A stretch of DNA of 46,603 nucleotides from a virus: positions 1 through 46,603 of the IMG/VR virus record IMGVR_UViG_3300020438_000068. One strand, written 5' to 3'. A program made the translations under genes and the position numbers. This document shows, in pieces, positions 11,617 to 46,603 of the stretch. How positions within the stretch are numbered: the stretch's first letter is position 1; every line of letters starts with the position of its first letter. Under the pieces are notes generated by a model that saw only the letters and a program-made list of their open reading frames with translations, ran no database searches and was not told where the DNA came from.

Positions 11617-11769
11617 ATGATGAGCATCACCAGGCCCTTAATGGGTATCAGGGAAGAGATCTGTATGCAACCAATACTGACACACCTTGGCAGCATGCGT
11701 GCACCGCTTGCTTGTTGCAGCCTGTTTGGCTTGCTAATACTGAACACGCGTTCAGCTGGAGGTGAGTGA
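11617..11769 (+). CDS. 50-residue hydrophobic leader gene before erf
   Basis: A short frame with a good ribosome site (TGGAGGGAT seven bases upstream). It overlaps the next gene by one base in a TGATG junction, which suggests coupled translation. The product has a hydrophobic C-terminal segment (PLACCSLFGLLIL). The inverted repeat CTGAAC-acgc-GTTCAG lies near its 3' end. It may be a membrane peptide or only a translational leader for the annealing protein. Confidence 0.45.
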   Translation: MMSITRPLMGIREEICMQPILTHLGSMRAPLACCSLFGLLILNTRSAGGE

Positions 11770-12365
11770 TGGGTTGGTCAGAAGAGTGCGACAAAATATT
11801 TTCAGCAATGTCTGACGCTCAACGCGCCTGCGCTGTACCCTTCAAGGGGAAAAAAGGCTACGGTTATGACTATGCAGATCTAACCAATGTGAAGGCGGCC
11901 TATGCTGAGGCTGTGGCTGGGTCTGTGGGCTTGGCAATCCTTGATGAGTGTGTCCCCATTCCTGAGGCCGGTGCAGGTTTCTGGTTAGTCACAACCGTTG
12001 TCCATAAGCACTCGGGGCAATGGACTAATACTCGGTGTCCTATCATGTGGGACACTGGGGCCAAGGTGGCCATGCAGTCTTACGGGTCAGCCGAAACCTA
12101 TGCACGCCGATACAACCGCCTTAAACTCTTTGATCTAGCCCCGTCAGATGCCTCAATTGAGGGTGATGGAGCTGGCCATGATCCAAACAAGGCACCACCT
12201 CAAGGCAGGCCACAGGCTAACAATCAAGCCCCACAGCATAGGCCGCCTCAAAACACTAGGCCAACACACCAGGGTAATGGTGGGGGGCCGCCTCAGATAA
12301 ACCTTCAATCACAACAGAATTTTAGCGAGGGCAGATACATTGGACCCAATGACCGCAGAAGATAA
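11769..12365 (+). CDS. erf: Erf-family single-strand annealing protein
   Basis: A 198-residue protein. Residues 20-130 match the Erf superfamily: GYGYDYADLTNVKAAYAEAV, a beta region, then the signature VAMQSYGSAETYARRYNRL followed by an acidic Asp/Glu segment. The C-terminal 60 residues are Pro/Gln/Asn rich and disordered. Erf-type proteins anneal complementary single strands during phage recombination and circularisation. I prefer ATG 11769, at the TGATG junction, over the GTG three bases upstream. The gene lies alone, opposite in direction to the surrounding tail genes, about 14 kb from the exonuclease that would be its natural partner. Confidence 0.85.
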   Translation: MGWSEECDKIFSAMSDAQRACAVPFKGKKGYGYDYADLTNVKAAYAEAVAGSVGLAILDECVPIPEAGAGFWLVTTVVHKHSGQWTNTRCPIMWDTGAKVAMQSYGSAETYARRYNRLKLFDLAPSDASIEGDGAGHDPNKAPPQGRPQANNQAPQHRPPQNTRPTHQGNGGGPPQINLQSQQNFSEGRYIGPNDRRR

Positions 12366-22153: not shown

Positions 22154-23440
22154 CTAGTCAGATGCAGTACGTGCGGCCCCCGCCTCACTGAACGTCTGGC
22201 CAGTAATAAGCGTGGCCTCACGATACTCAGCCCCTGAGGCCTCCCAGCGCTGGACAATCAGATCCACATAGCCGGGATCAAGCTCCATACCAAAGCAGGC
22301 CCGCCCGGTCTCATCTGCAGCCATGAGGGTGCAACCTGAACCCAAGAACAGATCAACCACCAGATCACCATGCTCAGAGCTGTGGCTGATAGCGTGCTTG
22401 GCCAGTTCGATCGGTTTCTCTGTGGGGTGCTCAGTGGTGGCCTTAGACCGTGAGATCTCCCACACGTTCAAAGCGTGGCCAGCCGGCGGAAAATTAAAGC
22501 AATGTTTGCCCCTTGTGCCGTAGCAAATCAGCTCTGTTGCCCAGGTCCAGTGCCGCTTAGCCAGGCTGGGCATGGGGTTTGGCTTATGCCAAACACAATA
22601 AGAGCTATGGCCACATGTTTCAGCCATCCACCCCCAGATCTTGCCAGCTAGATGGTGAGAGGTGCAGACATAGATTGAGCAGGCCTCACCGGCCAGGCTG
22701 TCAATGGCTGGAAATATACCAGTGATGTCAAAACCTTTATCCCAGTCTGAATCCTTTAGCCGCTGAGCCCGATCGCGAATAGATGCCGCTAACAAGGTAT
22801 CTTCAGAGGCGTGATTGTATGGTGGGTCTGTGAAAACCATGAGGGCCTTCTCACCATCCATCAGCGTGGCTACGTCCTTGAGGTCTGTGGCGTCCCCACA
22901 CATAACCCTATGTTCACCCAGCTGCCAGACATCTCCGCGCCTTGTGGTGGGCTTCTCTGGCCTCTCCTCTCCCCCGCTGCCTAGCTTCTCACCATTGGAG
23001 CCCTCAACCATCTCATCAAGGGTGGGCAGGCCTAGCGCGTCCAGCTCTGCAGGGCTCCAGTATTGGTCAAGGTCAAGCCCATCAGCCTGGAGCTCACCGA
23101 GCACATCAGGATCCCACGTGAGGCCAAGCTCTGAGGCCCTGTTGTCCATGATGGCCAGCCCTCTGCCTGCCTCGCTGTCAAGGTCCAGGTCAGTGCGCCT
23201 CACCACCACCAGCTCTGAACCATCAGTCTCAATCACCCGCGCATCATCGAGACCCACCTCAAGTGCTGCCTGCGCTGTGGTATTGCCCGCTATGATTCGA
23301 TTGTTGGCATCAACCAGCAGGGAACGCCCCCCACCATAACGGCTAAGAGAATCAGCCACCATGCCTGCCCCACGGGGTGTGCCCTGGTTAGCATTTTTTG
23401 AGTCTGGCACCAGCTCTGAGATCTTGATTTTCTTGGCCAT
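22154..23440 (-). CDS. ParB-like nuclease domain fused to adenine/cytosine-N4 DNA methyltransferase
   Basis: A 428-residue fusion. Residues 1-125 have a ParB/sulfiredoxin-like fold signature (NRIIAGNTTAQAAL at 47-60). From residue about 165 follow beta-class methyltransferase motifs: GDVWQLGEHRVMCGDA, catalytic DPPY (205-208), HPTEKP (338-343) and the SAM-binding FLGSG (365-369). The order DPPY before FxGxG marks the beta class, which methylates exocyclic amino groups. Such fusions are common phage solitary methylases that protect DNA from restriction or alter regulation. No restriction partner is seen nearby. It leads the head operon. Confidence 0.85.
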   Translation of the reverse strand: MAKKIKISELVPDSKNANQGTPRGAGMVADSLSRYGGGRSLLVDANNRIIAGNTTAQAALEVGLDDARVIETDGSELVVVRRTDLDLDSEAGRGLAIMDNRASELGLTWDPDVLGELQADGLDLDQYWSPAELDALGLPTLDEMVEGSNGEKLGSGGEERPEKPTTRRGDVWQLGEHRVMCGDATDLKDVATLMDGEKALMVFTDPPYNHASEDTLLAASIRDRAQRLKDSDWDKGFDITGIFPAIDSLAGEACSIYVCTSHHLAGKIWGWMAETCGHSSYCVWHKPNPMPSLAKRHWTWATELICYGTRGKHCFNFPPAGHALNVWEISRSKATTEHPTEKPIELAKHAISHSSEHGDLVVDLFLGSGCTLMAADETGRACFGMELDPGYVDLIVQRWEASGAEYREATLITGQTFSEAGAARTASD

Positions 23441-26180: not shown

Positions 26181-26369
26181 TCATTCAAGCGCTTTTGCCT
26201 GCCAAACCTTGATCGCCCTCAGCCTGTCAACCACATCAGCCACCCGCCTTGAGCGCTTGGCTAGAGTCTTGAGGTATTGCTCACCGATGGATAGACCCAG
26301 CTCATCAGCCAGAGCCTGTACCATGGTGAGCCTCTCCTCAGGCCGTTCAGGCAGAAGCTCACCCAGCAT
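26181..26369 (-). CDS. Small helical protein at the end of the replication operon
   Basis: A 62-residue, all-helical basic/acidic protein. The ATG is preceded by GAGGAAGAG and overlaps the exonuclease stop by 11 bp, so it is translationally coupled. No domain is recognised. Being last in the recombination operon, it may assist the exonuclease. Confidence 0.55.
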   Translation of the reverse strand: MLGELLPERPEERLTMVQALADELGLSIGEQYLKTLAKRSRRVADVVDRLRAIKVWQAKALE

Positions 26370-27420
26370 CTCTCTTCCTCACCGTAAACTTCTCATAACC
26401 AGAGCCCTGCTTCACATATTGCTCATGAAGCTCAGGATAAGCCTCCTTAAAGCCGCCCTCATCAAACTTGGCTCTCCCCTTAACCCTGCTTAAAGATACG
26501 CTCACACGGTGATTCTGGGCCTTTTTGGCGCCCCTTAGGGCTTGCCTTAGGCGGTTGTCTGTTAGTTTCTTTCTTTCTGTGAGCTCTTTGATCTGATCTG
26601 CAAGCTCTAGCCGCTCAACTGCCAGGGCTTCAATCTCTTCATCTGCCTCAATCTCTTTGTCTGTCCAGCCGTAGTGTTTACGCAAAGCAAGAACACAGCT
26701 GTCTGAGGCATCTGCTGCTGGTGGTGTATCGCCAATGATGTGACGCTCATACCAGTCAATTGCATAGGGTATCACCTGATCCATAAACGCCTGATCCCGT
26801 TCAAACTGATGGAGGTGATAGGTGGCACAGCCGTTCTCAATGGCAAAGATGGCATCATCTGGGGTCTGAATTAGGCCCAGGGCCTCAGAGGGTGCGTTCA
26901 GGCATCCCAGCCAGCCCACATCAATGGGGCCTTTCCCCGCTGCCATGCTCTCAAGGTGGACTGCCCACAGGTATGATTGAAGCTGGAGCCTGTAGGCTGG
27001 TGGGCCAGCCTCGCCCCAGGTGCCAAAAGTGCCCATGGTTTTGGCCTCGAATACGCCTATGAGATTGTCTTCCATGTCATAGACCCTGCGGTCAATTGAG
27101 TGATGGAAGTATTGGCTGTAAGGCTTAACCCATGCCTGGGTTTCTGGGAACTGCTCACGCATTCTCACGCCTAGCTTCTGCTCTCCAAGCTCACACACAA
27201 TGGGCTCAAGGCGCCTGCCCTCCATCATGGCTCTATTGGTTTTGATCTCAGGCTCTATGCCCTTGATACGAAGCCACAAATCATGAGGCCCCCTGTATTT
27301 TGACATGCCCAAAAGGGCCGCCCATTGTGTTCCAGAGATTGCCCCCAGGCGCTCACCGGGTATACCCCGGCCACCAAGGAGCAGGGGCTCATGCTGCTCA
27401 TTTTTCTCAATGCATCTCAT
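26359..27420 (-). CDS. YqaJ-type viral exonuclease
   Basis: A 353-residue protein. It has the YqaJ/lambda-exonuclease-like motifs: SGTQWAALLGMSKYRGPHDL near the start, RRLEPIV with the conserved Glu, and the nuclease core GVFEAKTMG followed by PPAYRLQLQSYLWA. It should degrade one strand of double-stranded ends and hand the overhang to an annealing protein such as Erf. The ATG at 27420 is set by TGGAGGGA seven bases upstream, so the nine extra upstream codons are not used. The C-terminus is a coiled coil (LADQIKELTERKKLTDN) and a basic tail. Confidence 0.8.
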   Translation of the reverse strand: MRCIEKNEQHEPLLLGGRGIPGERLGAISGTQWAALLGMSKYRGPHDLWLRIKGIEPEIKTNRAMMEGRRLEPIVCELGEQKLGVRMREQFPETQAWVKPYSQYFHHSIDRRVYDMEDNLIGVFEAKTMGTFGTWGEAGPPAYRLQLQSYLWAVHLESMAAGKGPIDVGWLGCLNAPSEALGLIQTPDDAIFAIENGCATYHLHQFERDQAFMDQVIPYAIDWYERHIIGDTPPAADASDSCVLALRKHYGWTDKEIEADEEIEALAVERLELADQIKELTERKKLTDNRLRQALRGAKKAQNHRVSVSLSRVKGRAKFDEGGFKEAYPELHEQYVKQGSGYEKFTVRKRDAG

Positions 27421-27655
27421 CAAATATCCCTCCACTGATGCGATCAACTATTCTCTCACCAGCTGCCCACAGCCGGTGCTCTTCAACGCCTGCGTGGCAC
27501 TGATACAAGTGCCAGCGCTGGTCTTCGTCCATTAACCTGAATTCTCGCCAGATACCTGCCTCAGGGATAATCTGGACAAGTCGCCAGTACCCCTTTTTTC
27601 GCCAATACCACTCGTATTTTTCGATATCCGGGTAGTCATCATATGGGCCTTCCAT
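27407..27655 (-). CDS. Small Trp/Tyr-rich protein between resolvase and exonuclease
   Basis: An 82-residue acidic protein rich in Trp and Tyr (KYEWYWRKKGYWRL) with CHAGVEEH later. It overlaps the resolvase end by 17 bp and the exonuclease start by 14 bp, which fits coupled translation in the operon. No family is recognised. Confidence 0.6.
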   Translation of the reverse strand: MEGPYDDYPDIEKYEWYWRKKGYWRLVQIIPEAGIWREFRLMDEDQRWHLYQCHAGVEEHRLWAAGERIVDRISGGIFDEMH

Positions 27656-28190
27656 CTCCCATGCCTCTCACCTCCCTCAGTGCGTAAAGGGATAGAAGCC
27701 CTGCCTCTGCCAGCCCGTCATGTTTCTTTGTAGCCCTCGCTGATCTCTCAAGAGAGAGTGAGGGGAGCAGCCGCCCAGCTGCTAAGATGCTCCGATCTTT
27801 GCCTTTCCCCGGTACGCCCTTACACATCGCCGGGATCCAGTCTGCCGCTCTTGGTGTGATATATCTCCAGCCAAGCCCAACAATGATGCCCTGCCAGAGG
27901 CCTTGAGATAGCCCAAGACTGTGGCAAGCATTACGCCCCTTTGGGGGCCTTGATTCTGTGAGCTCAAGGGCAATCAAGTCAGGCCTGTCATATTCACCAG
28001 CATTGGCCTCATCAGCCGCAGCAACACAGGCTCTAAGAGCAAGCCTCATGCCAGCTGGGTCAAAAACTTTCCTGGTGCTCTTGCCGGCCTGCACCTTGAG
28101 TGTGGGGGTGATGGCAGCAAAGACGGGCACACCATCAGCGCAAGCGCAGATAGCCCCGTCTAGTCCTGGATCGATGCCTATAGTGAGCAT
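27639..28190 (-). CDS. RuvC-like Holliday junction resolvase
   Basis: A 183-residue protein with the RuvC layout: IGIDPGLDGA (Asp7), IALELTESRP (Glu76), and the C-terminal KKHDGLAEAGLLSLYAL (His157, Asp158) that carries the last metal ligands. It resolves four-way junctions, needed to debranch recombining or replicating phage DNA before packaging. The start overlaps the loader gene by 13 bp. Confidence 0.85.
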   Translation of the reverse strand: MLTIGIDPGLDGAICACADGVPVFAAITPTLKVQAGKSTRKVFDPAGMRLALRACVAAADEANAGEYDRPDLIALELTESRPPKGRNACHSLGLSQGLWQGIIVGLGWRYITPRAADWIPAMCKGVPGKGKDRSILAAGRLLPSLSLERSARATKKHDGLAEAGLLSLYALREVRGMGDGRPI

Positions 28191-29083
28191 CTGTGATCAT
28201 CCCCCACCAGGCTAAAGATGCGCTCATTGCACGCACCCTTGAGCCGGCTGGCCGCCCGCTCACCAAAGACTTGCCCCATGCCCATGGGGCCTGAACCCGG
28301 TGTGCAGTTGGTTGTGATCAGCAGGGTGACGCTTAGCGGTTGATCTTCCAGTAGTGTGCAAGTCTGTTCCCACACCCACTCAGGCCGCTTTGGCTGAACG
28401 CTGCCAAGGTCATCAATCACCACTAGGCCCCTTGAGGGCAGAGAGCTCCACACCCCATCAGCAGGACCATCACCGGCCATCGAGGCCCTCATCCTCTCAA
28501 GGTGTTTGGCCCATCCCACCCATCTGACAGGGTGGCCAGCAAAGAGCGCATCAACGGAGAGCTGGTGAGCTAGTGCAGACTTCCCCCGCCCTGGCTTGCC
28601 CACCAGGCAGGTTGAGCCAACATCACTGTCACCGCTCACCACCGCTTGTGCCCATGAGCCAAGGTAATCCTTGACCGGCTGACCCCCAGCCACCTCAACC
28701 CGCGCCCAATCAAACGGGGCACCGGCCTGGAATTTGTACTGAAGGCCAGCAGAATTGAATCTATGCACCAGGCTTGAGAGCCCACCACAGTCAATGCAGT
28801 GATCACTTGAATCCTGAGCCCTAGAGGTCCAGCAGGTATCACACCCCCGCCTCCATTTCTCAGCCCGCTTGGCCTTGAGGGTGTGCCCACTGGCTAAGAA
28901 TCTCAGATCTTTGGCGCTCCAAGCCTCTGGTGCTTTTGGTGGCCCGTTGCCCGTTGCCCTGAGCTCTTGATCTCTAGCCCACTCCTCTGCCCTGCGCCTT
29001 TTGGCCTCCCCTTTGGACGCCTCAAGCGCTTCAATGGCTGCAGCTAATGAGCCCTTCATGCTTTGCATCTGCACCCCTATCAT
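28178..29083 (-). CDS. DnaC-like AAA+ helicase loader with zinc finger
   Basis: A 301-residue protein. A CxxC-x11-CxxC zinc finger lies at residues 81-99. The AAA+ core follows: Walker A GKPGRGKS (162-169), Walker B LVVIDDLGS (220-228), sensor-1 LLITTN (254-259) and the box VII region GERAASRLKG (Arg280). This is the DnaC/IstB-type family that loads the replicative DnaB helicase. Its position next to the initiator gene containing the origin fits that job. The start is coupled to the initiator stop by an ATGA overlap; ATG at residue 6 is an alternative. Confidence 0.85.
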   Translation of the reverse strand: MIGVQMQSMKGSLAAAIEALEASKGEAKRRRAEEWARDQELRATGNGPPKAPEAWSAKDLRFLASGHTLKAKRAEKWRRGCDTCWTSRAQDSSDHCIDCGGLSSLVHRFNSAGLQYKFQAGAPFDWARVEVAGGQPVKDYLGSWAQAVVSGDSDVGSTCLVGKPGRGKSALAHQLSVDALFAGHPVRWVGWAKHLERMRASMAGDGPADGVWSSLPSRGLVVIDDLGSVQPKRPEWVWEQTCTLLEDQPLSVTLLITTNCTPGSGPMGMGQVFGERAASRLKGACNERIFSLVGDDHRCSL

Positions 29084-29976
29084 CGGTTTCCCCCCGCCTT
29101 GGCCAGCTTCCCACCAAGTCTCTGAATTGCTTTGAGTTGGGCTTTCACGTGTTCTTGGTCTTCTGGTGATTCATGGGCTTGCTCAATCGGTGATCTCGCT
29201 TTGAGCGGTTGATAAGTGCCAGCCCTGTCAATCAGCCACTTGGGTGAAGGCCTCACCCCTGGATTCTGCTGGATGTAGGTCTTGATACTCTCAAGCCCGT
29301 GGGCTACAGCCTCAGCTGAGTGCAGTCTCAGAGCCTTGGAGATGTCACCCTCAGCCTTGCTGATGATTTGCTCTGAGTAACCCATGAGGGCATGCCAGGT
29401 GGATGCCATCGATTGAAAGGCCAAAGGGTCAAGGCCCTCACGCGCATGTGTGCCCACACCCATGTGTGCATGCCCGCGCTTTGTTGTTTGTTTGTTATTA
29501 TTATTTATTATATGCGTGCACTCTGAGTGTGCTTTTGGTGCACACTGAGTGTGCTTTTCACTTTTCTCAAATGCACTCTGAGTGTGCTTTTCATTTTCAC
29601 CAGCACCATCATCAAAAGCACTGTCAGTGTGCATTGTTGCACTCTCAGAGTGCGTTTTGCCTACATTACCCACACCCGCAAAAGCACTGTCAGAGTGCAC
29701 TTTGCTCACATCTGCACACATACGGATTGAGCCATAAGATCCAAAGATCAGGCCATCCAACTTCAGTGCCTTGATAGTCTTGGTGGCCTGGTTTCTGTGG
29801 ACACCCATGAGGGTGGCCAGCTTCACCGCTGTGAGCGCTGCAGTGTGGTTGTCTTCTGCCATGGCTCTCATGCTGATTATCAGCAAGGCATGACGCTTGG
29901 TGGCAGTAGAGACCCCGTAAGATGCCTCTACGCTTTCAACGTTCTGCCAGTACCAGCGGAGGGCATCAGCGCTCAT
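29080..29976 (-). CDS. Replication initiator with origin inside the gene
   Basis: A 298-residue protein. Residues 1-90 contain a winged-helix/HTH region (ALTAVKLATLMGVHRNQATK) as in lambda O or DnaD-like initiators. The middle (about 95-165) is low-complexity, with repeats of the type KHTQSAF and HSESA, and is encoded by the iteron DNA at 29517-29699. The C-terminus (about 180-298) has a helical part around IISKAEGDISKALRLHSAEAV and a Pro/Lys-rich tail that may contact the helicase loader. A good ribosome site (AAGGCT) precedes the ATG. It is the first gene of the replication operon. Confidence 0.75.
   Translation of the reverse strand: MSADALRWYWQNVESVEASYGVSTATKRHALLIISMRAMAEDNHTAALTAVKLATLMGVHRNQATKTIKALKLDGLIFGSYGSIRMCADVSKVHSDSAFAGVGNVGKTHSESATMHTDSAFDDGAGENEKHTQSAFEKSEKHTQCAPKAHSECTHIINNNNKQTTKRGHAHMGVGTHAREGLDPLAFQSMASTWHALMGYSEQIISKAEGDISKALRLHSAEAVAHGLESIKTYIQQNPGVRPSPKWLIDRAGTYQPLKARSPIEQAHESPEDQEHVKAQLKAIQRLGGKLAKAGGNR
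29481..29699. other. Candidate replication origin: six iterons and an AT-rich stretch
   Basis: Six copies of a near-palindromic iteron of the type TGCACTCTGAGTGTGCTTTT occur at 29517-29536, 29539-29558, 29572-29591, 29614-29633 (inverted), 29638-29658 and 29680-29699 (inverted). Beside them at 29481-29513 lies an AT-rich run (TTGTTTGTTATTATTATTTA) that could be the unwinding element. Iterons inside the initiator gene next to AT-rich DNA are the layout of lambda ori in gene O. Confidence 0.8.
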
Positions 29977-30246: not shown

Positions 30247-30609
30247 TTACGGTTCCTCGGTAAGGGCAAGGCCACTGATCCTCACAAGCACATTATTGGC
30301 CTGCTGTAGCGTGGCAATTGCCCGCTGATTTGTGCGGGCAACACTTTGCAATGACAAGGGATCATCACCTTTGAGGGTGCCCGCTGTTGAGGGTAGCAGC
30401 TCTGAGGGGTCAGCACCTAAGGCGGCGCAGAACTCAGCGAACACCTCAACCCTCATGGCTGAATCTCCGTTCTCAATCTTTGACCAGGTGGGCCTGTTGC
30501 AGCTCACGTGTTCAACCATCTGGACCTGTGTCAGCCCTGCTGTCTTCCTCGTTGCCCTTATGTTCCTCCCCAGCTCTCTGCGAAACTCTAGCGTCTGCTC
30601 ATACTTCAT
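30247..30609 (-). CDS. Cro/CI-type (XRE) repressor
   Basis: A 120-residue protein. Residues 10-72 form a classic XRE helix-turn-helix (LGRNIRATRKTAGLTQVQMV, then CNRPTWSKIENGD). The short C-terminus lacks a LexA/CI peptidase motif, so RecA-stimulated self-cleavage is not expected. The start is ATG 30609 behind TGGAGGGA, the strong ribosome site used by several genes here; the 21 extra upstream codons are leader. It faces the SSB operon across the switch region and is the likely lysogeny regulator. Confidence 0.8.
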   Translation of the reverse strand: MKYEQTLEFRRELGRNIRATRKTAGLTQVQMVEHVSCNRPTWSKIENGDSAMRVEVFAEFCAALGADPSELLPSTAGTLKGDDPLSLQSVARTNQRAIATLQQANNVLVRISGLALTEEP

Positions 30610-30807
30610 TTTTCCCTCCATTGCCTCGGGGCACCCTGGTGCCCTCTTTTCTCCATCCTCCATTGTAAACACTTTTTTGGGTCAAATGTCTGTCCCTTTT
30701 CTGTCTGCCCCCGTTTTTCCGTGATCTAAATTTGAACAAAATGCTTGATCAAAGTTCCAAAGGTGTGCATGATTCATACACACACACACAAATGGAGGGA
30801 TCCAAAA
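30610..30807. promoter_or_regulatory. Lysogeny switch: divergent promoters sharing TTGATCAA
   Basis: The palindrome TTGATCAA (30745-30752) supplies a -35 in both directions. Rightward: TTGATC, 17 bases, CATGAT (30768-30773), leading to SSB. Leftward: TTGATC, 17 bases, TTAGAT (30729-30724), leading to the repressor. The region also has TTTGAAC and GTTCCAAA flanking it as a loose dyad, the perfect hairpin GGGCACC-ct-GGTGCCC (30628-30643) in the repressor leader, and an AC run before the SSB ribosome site. Confidence 0.6.
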
Positions 30808-31314
30808 ATGAGCGATCTAAATGCATACAATTTCACTGGGCGCCTGGGGGCGGACCCTGAGATCAGGACCACCCAGTCAGGCAAAAGGGTGGCCACACTA
30901 TCAGTCGCGATCAAAGATCGAGATAAAACAGTCTGGACAAAAGTTACTTGCTGGTCACCTTGGTTGGTCGAATTCTCTGAGCAATATCTCACAACGGGGT
31001 CAAGCGTATGGGGAGTGGGTAGGATCACAACTGACAAGTACACTGACAAGAACGGGCAGCAGCGTACAAGCTGGGGAGTCACAGCCGCAAGCATGGGCTT
31101 CAATGGCCCCAAGCCCTCTCAGTCTGAAGATAGTTTTCAAGGCAACACGCCACAAGAGTACAGCAGGCCACACCAGCAACCTCAAGACAATGGGGGCTGG
31201 CAGCAGCAACCACAGCAGCAGCAACCACAGCAGCAGGGCTGGGGGTCAGCCGGTCAAGAGACGTGGGGCAATGGCAATGGCAATGGCAATGGCGGGGGCT
31301 GGAACAATGCGTGA
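30808..31314 (+). CDS. ssb: Single-stranded DNA-binding protein
   Basis: A 168-residue protein. Residues 1-110 are an OB fold of the bacterial SSB family (NAYNFTGRLGADPEIRTTQS, SVAIKDR, KVTCWSPWLVEF, VWGVGRITTDKYTDKNGQ). The C-terminal 55 residues are Gln/Asn/Gly/Pro rich and end GGGWNNA. The usual acidic tip (DDIPF-like), which recruits partner proteins, is absent. It protects single strands during phage replication and recombination. ATG 30808 follows TGGAGGGAT. It is the first gene of the rightward operon. Confidence 0.9.
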   Translation: MSDLNAYNFTGRLGADPEIRTTQSGKRVATLSVAIKDRDKTVWTKVTCWSPWLVEFSEQYLTTGSSVWGVGRITTDKYTDKNGQQRTSWGVTAASMGFNGPKPSQSEDSFQGNTPQEYSRPHQQPQDNGGWQQQPQQQQPQQQGWGSAGQETWGNGNGNGNGGGWNNA

Positions 31315-35197: not shown

Positions 35198-35751
35198 TGG
35201 GCCTAAACCTTGACGGACTGACACCGGAAGCGTGCGCTCAGGCCATCGTAAGATCACAGGCTTACATATACAGGGTGATGTGCTCACCATGCTTTGAATG
35301 TATGGGCATACATCTTGAGCCAGTGGGTGTACGCAACCTTGTTGACATTTCAGAGGAATCAGAAGCAACAAAGCCAATGTATACCAGTGATCGCCGCCCC
35401 TTTGACATTAGGCATAAAGAAGCGCTCACCATTAAAGACCCCCTTCATAAGTCTTCAGCTCTCGATCTCTTACATCAAGAGAGGCTTGCAGATGCTGAAA
35501 AAAAAGCACAGGGGCTGTGCACAGGGGCTGAGTTTCTAGCTGTTTTTGGCAAGGTCGATCTCCATCACAGGCAAAGCCTCCAAAACAACCCAGCCGGGGC
35601 CTATGATGCTCAGCTAAGTGCTGGGGGTGGGTGCCTCATTTACCGCTTGCGAGTTGCCAGGGACCTCAAGCCACCACCCGCGCAGCGCTACCAGGAGATC
35701 CGAGAGAATTTAAACCACTGGCCTACCTACTTGGATCATCCAGGGTCCTGA
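35185..35751 (+). CDS. Orphan protein with Cys cluster
   Basis: A 188-residue protein. CSPCFEC (about residues 33-39) could bind a metal, but no second pair is clear. The middle is charged and helical (SALDLLHQERLADAEKKAQG). ATG 35185 overlaps the previous gene by 13 bp; another ATG at 35197 forms a TGATG junction with that stop and is a possible alternative. The 3' end overlaps the convergent tail gene by 29 bp. Function unknown. Confidence 0.55.
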   Translation: MFPVMGLNLDGLTPEACAQAIVRSQAYIYRVMCSPCFECMGIHLEPVGVRNLVDISEESEATKPMYTSDRRPFDIRHKEALTIKDPLHKSSALDLLHQERLADAEKKAQGLCTGAEFLAVFGKVDLHHRQSLQNNPAGAYDAQLSAGGGCLIYRLRVARDLKPPPAQRYQEIRENLNHWPTYLDHPGS

Positions 35752-44156: not shown

Positions 44157-45317
44157 TTGGCAACATACCCCTTTGACACAACGATCCCCAACCCCATCAG
44201 CGTGGCAGTGGGTACAGAGAGCACAGCGGCACTGATGCCAACTCTGGCCAGCGCCGTGAATGCCTCGCACGCTTACGGGTCAGGTGTATTGGTAAGCCAG
44301 AGCTTCACTGGTCAGGCTGCAGTATGCAGGCAGGTGCTAGCCTCAGTGGTTGGGAATAAGGGCACTCTCTGCAGCTGGTTTGTGCCTCAGATTACAGCTG
44401 CTCACACATCAGCCAGGGCTACTATCAGGTTTAGCCGCTTGACAAGCCCAGGCAGCAATGTGGCCGGGACTATTAGCCTGAAGATTGGATCAACTGTACT
44501 GGGAGCAATCAACGTTGATGCTACCAGGACCCTGGATAGCCCATCGGTAGTCAGTCTTGACATCACGATCCCCTTTGATGGTTCTGAGTATCAGCGGATC
44601 GATCTAGTTGTAGACTGGCCCGATCATGTCTCTGGCGGGTCAAATGATGAGACATTTTTTCTGATTCGCTCTGTCCATATCTATTCAAAGCAACTGACAT
44701 CCCCTTTGCCGGCAGGAGCCGTGGCCAGCAGTGGTGGACAGCTGGTGCCAATCGGTCAAAAGGCCAGCAGCACAGGGGCACCTTTTAGCGCTGCTTTAGG
44801 CATGGCCCTGCTCAATGATCTGAGCGCCATAGACAAAAGAAGAAAGCCAATCCTAGCCTGGGGAACTGTCCGCTTTATCAGTATTCTTGATGCAGTCTTA
44901 CTGACTACACACAAGACAACCCCCACAATCCGACCACAAGATCTCAGCCTGTTTGGTACCCATGTTGTACGGAACTGCCCAAGGGGGCTGAGGCTGAGGG
45001 TTGTGGCTGAACTTGAGGCCACAGGTGAGGCCACTAGCACTGCAGTCTTTGTTGCTGGTCCAGCTGGTGAGGCCTTTGGCCGCGCCGGGAGATTTGACCA
45101 GAGCTCTGTGAGTACGCTGGCACTCACCGTTGGCAATTCGCAGACAGTGGTGGTGAGTGGTTATCTCACGGTGACTACCCCCTCACGCATGTCAATGTGT
45201 GCAGATGCCCACATCTCTGTTGGTGTCATCAGTCACAAAGAAGCCGTTTCAACCATGGGGATCACATCTCCAGCCGCAAACATTAAAAGCCTGGCAATCT
45301 GGGAAGATCCACAATGA
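44157..45317 (+). CDS. Virion structural protein, unknown type
   Basis: A 386-residue beta-rich protein starting at TTG behind AAAAAAAGG. Small Ser/Thr/Ala/Val-rich segments and the absence of membrane spans or motifs suggest a virion or appendage component. It is the first gene of the rightward block that continues into the endolysin (ATGA overlap) and the lysis genes, so it is expressed late. Adhesin-like or head-decoration roles are both possible. Confidence 0.6.
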   Translation: MATYPFDTTIPNPISVAVGTESTAALMPTLASAVNASHAYGSGVLVSQSFTGQAAVCRQVLASVVGNKGTLCSWFVPQITAAHTSARATIRFSRLTSPGSNVAGTISLKIGSTVLGAINVDATRTLDSPSVVSLDITIPFDGSEYQRIDLVVDWPDHVSGGSNDETFFLIRSVHIYSKQLTSPLPAGAVASSGGQLVPIGQKASSTGAPFSAALGMALLNDLSAIDKRRKPILAWGTVRFISILDAVLLTTHKTTPTIRPQDLSLFGTHVVRNCPRGLRLRVVAELEATGEATSTAVFVAGPAGEAFGRAGRFDQSSVSTLALTVGNSQTVVVSGYLTVTTPSRMSMCADAHISVGVISHKEAVSTMGITSPAANIKSLAIWEDPQ

Positions 45318-46036
45318 GTAAGGGTGATGATTTCGAGAGAGAATGGAACGCTAGGCAGATTGCTGCGGGTGTTCTTGAGGGTGCCCCCCTGGGTGAGCTT
45401 GTTAGGCTGGGAGCCTTGCAGGTACAGGCAGAGGCTGGGCTCAAGGCTGATGGCTTGGCAGGCCCCAAAACAATTGACGCCATTGAGGAGCGCCTAGGCT
45501 TGCACTCAGAGCCTAAGAAGGCCCCCAGGCGGACACGCAGAAAGCCCCCGCCTGATATTGTCCCAATCCCAAGCCCTAGGAATGTGGGCAGGGTCTATGG
45601 TGAGTTTGGTTATCGTGCCGACCCCAAAAAACCAGGGGCAATCATCCAAGACAAGAAATGGGTAAAAGACCACATAGTCAAGTGCTGGTTCAATGATCAA
45701 ACCCAGTACACATACATACACAAGTATGTGGCTGACGAGTTTACCAAGATTATGGCTGAGGCCTCTGGCGCGTCTGGGTATTACCCTACCAAGGTCTGGG
45801 CATGGGTAGCCCGTACAAAGATGTGGGATCCCAAGCGTGATCCATCAATGCACGCCTATGGGATCGCGGTAGATATTGACTGGCATCTCCACCCCTATGG
45901 AACGCTTGAGGGTGATGGCCCCCTATTCACGCCTGAGGGTGAGATCTTCATCAACGCATTTGAGGACAGGGGCTGGTCTTGGGGAGGGCGCTGGAGCACA
46001 CCCGATCCGCATCATTTTGAAAGGGTGCGCCGATGA
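45314..46036 (+). CDS. Endolysin: peptidoglycan-binding domain plus M15 peptidase
   Basis: A 240-residue protein. Residues 27-62 resemble a peptidoglycan-binding type 1 repeat (LQVQAEAGLKADGLAGPKTI). A basic Pro/Arg linker (68-82) follows. The C-terminal catalytic domain has the VanY/M15 zinc motifs SMHAYGIAVDID (His180, Asp187) and DPHHFE (His233/His234). Such enzymes cut peptide bonds in the peptidoglycan stem. No signal peptide is present, so release needs the holin. The lysis genes follow with overlaps. Confidence 0.85.
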   Translation: MSKGDDFEREWNARQIAAGVLEGAPLGELVRLGALQVQAEAGLKADGLAGPKTIDAIEERLGLHSEPKKAPRRTRRKPPPDIVPIPSPRNVGRVYGEFGYRADPKKPGAIIQDKKWVKDHIVKCWFNDQTQYTYIHKYVADEFTKIMAEASGASGYYPTKVWAWVARTKMWDPKRDPSMHAYGIAVDIDWHLHPYGTLEGDGPLFTPEGEIFINAFEDRGWSWGGRWSTPDPHHFERVRR

Positions 46037-46302
46037 ATACCCCAATTAAGCCCACCAGCATGACACTCCAAATTGGGCAGATCATTGCACTGGTCACAGC
46101 CGTGTCAGCTGGTGCCACCAAGATGACCACTCTTGAGGCTGATGCCAAAGAGGCACGCGATACAGCCGCAGAGACTAAGGCTGAGATTAAAGATGTGCGC
46201 TCCGAGCTCAGAAGGCAGAGAGAGCTTCTGGCCAGGCTAGAGGGTGACAGCAGGGCGATCCTGCAAATCCTAAGAATGAGAGGCGGTAACAATGGCCCGT
46301 GA
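46033..46302 (+). CDS. Small membrane/coiled-coil lysis protein, second copy
   Basis: The 89-residue counterpart of 52-321, with Ser25 in place of Ala25 and all other changes silent. It directly follows the complete endolysin gene by an ATGA overlap, which shows the true gene order across the genome junction. Confidence 0.8.
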   Translation: MNTPIKPTSMTLQIGQIIALVTAVSAGATKMTTLEADAKEARDTAAETKAEIKDVRSELRRQRELLARLEGDSRAILQILRMRGGNNGP

Positions 46303-46603
46303 ATGCTTCGAAGCCATGGCCCTGGCCATCGCTGTGATCTTCCTCGTTTTTGGCCTTTTTCGGCCTGGTGCTTGCGATGGGTTTGCACAGTCAAAAAAAC
46401 AGAGCCCAGCCCAGTCAGCAAAGCAGAATACGGGGCAGATGCTTGAGGTGTGCAATACCGTGGGGCTCATACGCCTGATCCTTGAGGCCGAAGATCACAA
46501 GAAAACCAAACAACCCAAGAAGGTAACCGATGACACTACAGCCAGAAATGATGAAGGCTCTAGCACTGTGCGCCGTGGCCACGTGGGGAATCACAGAGGC
46601 CAG
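46292..46603 (+). CDS. Second lysis-cassette protein, second copy (partial)
   Basis: Counterpart of 311-676, cut by the window end after 104 codons. The frame is intact. Replacements relative to the left copy include Ile/Val, Thr/Ser, Gly/Ala, Ala/Ser, Ile/Met, Val/Leu and Arg/His. Confidence 0.65.
   Translation, partial: MARECFEAMALAIAVIFLVFGLFRPGACDGFAQSKKQSPAQSAKQNTGQMLEVCNTVGLIRLILEAEDHKKTKQPKKVTDDTTARNDEGSSTVRRGHVGNHRGQ
46530..46603 (+). CDS. Holin-like protein, second copy (partial)
   Basis: First 24 or so codons of the counterpart of 549-809. The three differences in this stretch are silent in this frame. Confidence 0.6.
   Translation, partial: MTLQPEMMKALALCAVATWGITEA

Follow-up and report, generated by a model that had tools for sequence, protein, structure and literature searches.

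A probable lambda-type replication origin inside the initiator gene of an apparently temperate phage

Does the repetitive middle of a phage replication gene serve the protein that it encodes, or is it there as DNA, as the origin from which the phage replicates? The window, by which we mean the whole stretch of DNA that was analysed, is 46,603 bases long and makes up a complete virus record, with genes for an integrase, a portal, a tape measure and other virion proteins. Its source appears to be a temperate tailed phage that has hardly any close relatives in the collections searched; one good relative of a structural gene was found there, a capsid with 49% identity on a 17-kb contig. The first and last 622 bp of the record (1 to 622 and 45982 to 46603) align without gaps at 94.2% identity, which suggests either terminal repeats that have diverged or a circular map whose closing overlap is slightly heterogeneous. 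From our analysis, positions 29480 to 29699 are very probably the replication origin of the phage, of the lambda type and inside its own initiator gene.

When the whole record was scanned for GCAC-N7-GTGC, six near-palindromes were found with starts at 29518, 29540, 29573, 29618, 29639 and 29684, and just one more, at 35506, was detected outside this array. The array spans 29517 to 29699 (183 bp), and all six sites are inside the minus-strand ORF at 29080 to 29976. A sequence-only reading of the window had described six iterons, each with GCAC and GTGC, packed into 183 bases in the low-complexity middle of the initiator gene; all six copies were indeed located, and the region is of low complexity. 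The consensus common to all six is GCAC[AT][CG]T[CG]A[CG][AT]GTGC. The sites are the following, with the peptide as which each is read.

29684 to 29698, no strand assigned: iteron GCACTGTCAGAGTGC, read as VHSDSA
29639 to 29653, no strand assigned: iteron GCACTCTCAGAGTGC, read as THSESA
29618 to 29632, no strand assigned: iteron GCACTGTCAGTGTGC, read as MHTDSA
29573 to 29587, no strand assigned: iteron GCACTCTGAGTGTGC, read as KHTQSA; its 20-bp copy is the same as that at 29517
29540 to 29554, no strand assigned: iteron GCACACTGAGTGTGC, read as KHTQCA
29518 to 29532, no strand assigned: second copy of iteron GCACTCTGAGTGTGC, in the other frame, read as AHSECT

The conserved core of the iteron is 15 bp long; a T4/A4 flank, which also sets the orientation, extends it to about 20 bp in most copies. 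A scan with three mismatches allowed gave 13 matches (2.65 expected), 12 of which were the six iterons, each counted on both strands, and none of 100 shuffles reached 13.

Five of the iterons share one reading frame (xHxxSA/CA). The sixth, at 29518, reads AHSECT because its frame is shifted by one base relative to the other five, and the identical 20-mers at 29517 to 29536 and 29572 to 29591 encode different peptides, KAHSECT and EKHTQSA. The iteron is conserved as DNA regardless of frame here, and likewise in lambda. If a His/Ser-rich linker peptide had been duplicated in tandem for protein function and the DNA repeats had followed passively, one would expect copies in one frame that encode similar heptads, as is the case for five of the six, but in the sixth the same DNA is read in a different frame, and other initiators have their copies in two or three frames at a spacing of 22 to 23 bp, not the in-frame 21 bp. 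Moreover, the palindromes were lost on codon resampling: synonymous recoding with the protein held fixed yielded at most three GCAC-N7-GTGC copies in 20,000 resamplings, and permutation of the gene's own codons yielded at most four, compared to the six observed. Since the peptide repeats are retained in the codon-resampling test, it is conservative. A peptide duplicated for its own sake is therefore a very improbable explanation, and the thing kept by selection is evidently the DNA and not the peptide. There is good support for the proposal that DNA selection produced the protein repeats as a by-product, because the reading frame of the iteron DNA differs between copies in this gene, in 21 of 22 other initiator genes and in lambda; the KHTQSA-like repeats would then simply be the translation of binding sites placed in a linker that is otherwise free of constraint.

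The iterons follow each other at 22, 33, 45, 21 and 45 bp. Their starts had a phase coherence of 0.96 to 0.98 at periods of 11.0 to 11.1 bp (0.98 at 11.05 bp), and the GCAC and GTGC arms of all six sites fall on 0 or 1 modulo 11. Random spacings of 16 to 48 bp, a range chosen by us, matched the observed coherence in 0.02% of trials when the period was optimised in both.

The array is part of the following gene neighbourhood.

29080 to 29976, minus strand: replication initiator gene, 298 amino acids, with a wHTH-like N-domain, the iteron linker, IINNNNKQTT and a C-terminal region
29737 to 29916, minus strand: predicted winged-helix core (amino acids 21 to 80), the putative iteron-binding domain, from a structure model and wHTH matches
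29480 to 29513, no strand assigned: A/T-rich run, proposed unwinding element, with the most A/T-rich 33-mers of the window
28178 to 29083, minus strand: DnaC-like AAA+ helicase loader gene (PHROG 50, E 6e-9; PHROG 3277, E 8.7e-7)
27639 to 28190, minus strand: Holliday-junction resolvase gene, same operon (PHROG 1770, E 2.9e-15)
26359 to 27447, minus strand: YqaJ/RecE-like exonuclease gene, same strand block (PF09588, 3.4e-15; PHROG 434, 2.8e-52)
30247 to 30672, minus strand: XRE-type repressor, upstream (PF13560, 6e-14)
30745 to 31314, plus strand: SSB gene, divergent (PF00436, 7.5e-19)

The 33-mers of 29480 to 29513 hold 4 G/C of 33, the lowest value in the 46,603-base record; this run, which encodes IINNNNKQTT, is directly past the last iteron on the C-terminal-coding side, and it is the A/T-rich run that had been noticed beside the iterons. 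The gene that follows, also expected from the earlier reading to be a helicase loader, matches DnaC-like loaders and overlaps the initiator gene by 4 bp in the same operon. Iterons in the middle of the gene, an A/T element beside them and a loader gene immediately downstream are the arrangement of a lambda-type origin, and they support the lambda-like intragenic origin that had been proposed. We infer initiator binding, unwinding, origin activity and loader function from lambda. The N-terminal winged helix would bind the six GCAC-N7-GTGC palindromes, presumably as one dimer per palindrome with all dimers on one face of the 11-bp lattice; the assembled initiator complex would strain and open the adjoining A/T run, and the DnaC-like loader encoded by the neighbouring gene would bring the replicative helicase to the opened run. 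GC skew had a local minimum at 30,788, which is the change of gene orientation, and a global minimum at 44,198, and it is confounded by gene orientation. There was no exact DnaA box (TTATNCACA) in the initiator gene and no excess of DnaA boxes across the window. Elsewhere in the record, an Erf-like annealing protein (11766 to 12365) and the RecE/YqaJ exonuclease (26359 to 27447), normally neighbours, are encoded 14 kb apart, and 22154 to 23440, beside packaging genes, encodes a DNA methyltransferase (PHROG 498, 6e-82) with a ParB-like domain fused to its N-terminus.

Near-palindromic sites are typical of operators and initiators often autoregulate; thus, the initiator or another regulator might repress the operon from these sites and the true origin might be elsewhere. 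However, the six sites are 280 to 460 bp inside the gene and not at a promoter, and an origin better accounts for six in-phase copies that adjoin the A/T-richest stretch and precede a helicase loader gene. The two roles, autoregulation and origin, are also compatible, as in iteron plasmids. In arms and length, GCAC-N7-GTGC also resembles NtrC-type enhancer sites, and such sites seem to dominate the matches of the pattern in bacterial genomes. An NtrC enhancer has specific bases at positions 5 and 11 and comes as two promoter-proximal sites about 32 bp apart. Most of the sites in the window depart from Y/R at these two positions, and NtrC-type sites were rejected for an array of six in a coding region at 21 to 45 bp that is not such a pair. 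Altogether, we consider operators improbable. Tandem palindromes can also be parS-like, and a ParB-like domain is encoded in this record, so that a centromere-like array for partition or prophage-plasmid maintenance, and not for initiation, was considered. That domain belongs to the methyltransferase fusion encoded in the packaging block, well away from the array. The phage has an integrase, none of the proteins tested was recognised as ParA, and the array itself is inside an initiator gene; of the explanations other than an origin, partition is the least credible, slightly below peptide duplication.

Can the initiator itself be assigned to the lambda O family? Its layout is a wHTH-like region at about amino acids 21 to 80, the iteron-encoded linker at 93 to 155, then IINNNNKQTT and the C-terminal region. 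It scored below threshold for PF04492, HTH_36 and the PHROG replication families (best PHROG 6643, E 0.0083), and a custom O-like HMM did not single it out (E 1.2). Pattern and tblastn searches of phage records, of viral contigs and of a sample of about 1,430 prokaryote genomes found no relative, and a PDB sequence search gave no match. L002, a candidate relative via the loader, was discarded as a chance peptide match within a structural gene. The first 95 residues do match O-like wHTH domains in an alignment around the recognition helix (GVHRNQATKTIKALKLDGLI), and hhalign of the N-domain against an O-like profile gave P 5e-4 with a probability of 30% (P 0.11 for the XRE control). A single-sequence model was poor; with O-like rows in the alignment, a wHTH was modelled with pLDDT 68 (about 70 to 90 over residues 21 to 80). 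The neighbours of this alignment-biased model included LexA, DtxR and the DnaD N-domain at Z of about 7, with wHTH matches up to Z 7.5, and Foldseek gave E > 0.02; families missing from the structure-search results were not counted as absent. Because O-like sequences sat in the modelling alignment, the evidence for the fold is partly circular; the N-domain looks like a wHTH in a model that the alignment biases. On the present evidence, the initiator would work like lambda O yet cannot be filed in Phage_rep_O, since it was below threshold in the family libraries and the O-like HMM and no relative was found.

The likeness to lambda is one of arrangement. The lambda ori in gene O also has its iterons in the middle of the initiator gene and the A/T run on the C-terminal side, and the lambda O and P genes overlap by 4 bp as do the initiator and loader genes here. 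The lambda iterons are CCCT-N7-AGGG-like, with the same 4-N7-4 build, and are spaced at 20 to 24 bp in frames 0, 2, 2 and 1. Unlike lambda, the phage has GCAC/GTGC arms, wider spacings (21 to 45 bp) and a DnaC-like loader instead of lambda P, and its initiator has no recognisable sequence similarity to lambda O. The Stx phages P27 and 933W have six iterons, as here, and for lambda and Stx phages binding of the O protein, the A/T region and iteron mutants are on record (PMC7466680). Lambda O, P22 gene 18 and phage L gene 18 have different iterons, each in its own coding region; the two gene 18 products are distantly related initiators that resemble ours in this respect (PMC8022706) but the iteron sequences are others, and the gene that comes next is for a DnaB-type helicase instead of a loader. 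The Rep gene of the lactococcal phage Tuc2009 also has its origin inside (the record is annotated "contains origin of replication") but has different repeats; GCAC-N7-GTGC sites were absent from the Rep genes of both TP901-1 and Tuc2009.

Is the palindrome used by other initiators as well? A strict two-copy pattern matched one viral contig, L003. There (904 to 1623, 1318 to 1385), an HTH-type initiator-like gene has two GCAC-N7-GTGC palindromes in two frames in its linker; the same linker contains TTATCCACA, the DnaA-box consensus, four times, with three copies spaced at 12-bp steps, and these encode VDN repeats. Relaxed patterns added L006, L012 and L079 with a tandem site in an initiator linker; L012 was above the cut-off for PF04492 Phage_rep_O (37.1 bits), and L079 was the one useful locus from a relaxed scan of prokaryote genomes that otherwise gave mostly NtrC-like intergenic sites. 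A broader scan of viral contigs gave at least about 117 loci; in at least 72 of them, the sites fall within an ORF of 100 amino acids or more. Among the matches listed, 14 of 40 distinct ORFs of at least 150 amino acids matched PHROG replication-initiation or O-like families and the rest mostly nothing. The palindromes were in two or three frames in 22 of 23 initiator genes tabulated from the matches listed, a count that includes the window and some close relatives of one another (L166, L184, L193, L198, L209). In most of these genes, the A/T-richest 33-mer is shortly 3' of the palindromes. The 22- to 23-bp spacing was found in the initiators from the scan although the pattern admitted 21. Genes of the Phage_rep_O or PHROG O-like type (L012, L079, L152, L166, L178, L204, L228, L238 and others) share with the window the palindrome, its position in the gene, a similar lattice and the 3' A/T run; their N-domains are recognised as O-like, whereas that of the window initiator is not at threshold.

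Initiator genes were found at 15 to 20 of 72 ORF-covered loci for GCAC-N7-GTGC, depending on HMM training (15 with the HMM trained without the GCAC scan set), and at 7 of 107 for the scrambled control palindrome GACC-N7-GGTC in the same arrangement, both among the matches listed. Since the control also matched initiator genes, the 4-N7-4 geometry in the initiator linker is general. What differs is the arm sequence, for which GCAC is frequently chosen but no more than enriched, in keeping with the different iterons of lambda O, P22 18 and L 18 (PMC8022706) and with the O-binding and iteron-mutant results for lambda and Stx phages (PMC7466680). GTCG-N7-CGAC-like sites are present in O-like genes of Acinetobacter and Escherichia. 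Tandem GACC-N7-GGTC palindromes were also seen in repetitive ORF linkers of L260, L279, L320, L348, L299 and L323 (for example, NDQPSVKSDQPVVKNDQ); some of the carrier ORFs are initiator-like by HMM, which suggests that GACC-N7-GGTC is another iteron arm code. At L144, L148, L155, L186, L196, L207, L217, L230, L246, L251 and others, tandem GCACCAAAGTGGTGC-like palindromes at 21 to 23 bp are outside long ORFs and may be either intergenic origins or NtrC-like control sites. A limited literature search, with subscription journals outside its cover, found no description of the GCAC-N7-GTGC iteron class. We propose, with a little less than even confidence, that GCAC-N7-GTGC is a recurrent iteron of many distantly related wHTH initiators, indifferent to frame and set on an 11-bp half-site lattice, and that initiators of the shared 4-N7-4 geometry follow a few arm codes (GCAC, GACC, CCCT and others). 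If this is true, arm codes read straight from DNA could predict phage origins and origin specificity.

For the phage studied here, which has almost no sequence relatives, a probable origin has been placed, and selection at the DNA level was visible from the sequence alone. In initiator linkers, 4-N7-4 palindromes that follow an 11-bp lattice may offer a simple, frame-independent rule for origins in metagenomic phages. With the GCAC arm in unrelated initiators, the evolution of initiator specificity would become directly testable by swapping domains and sites.
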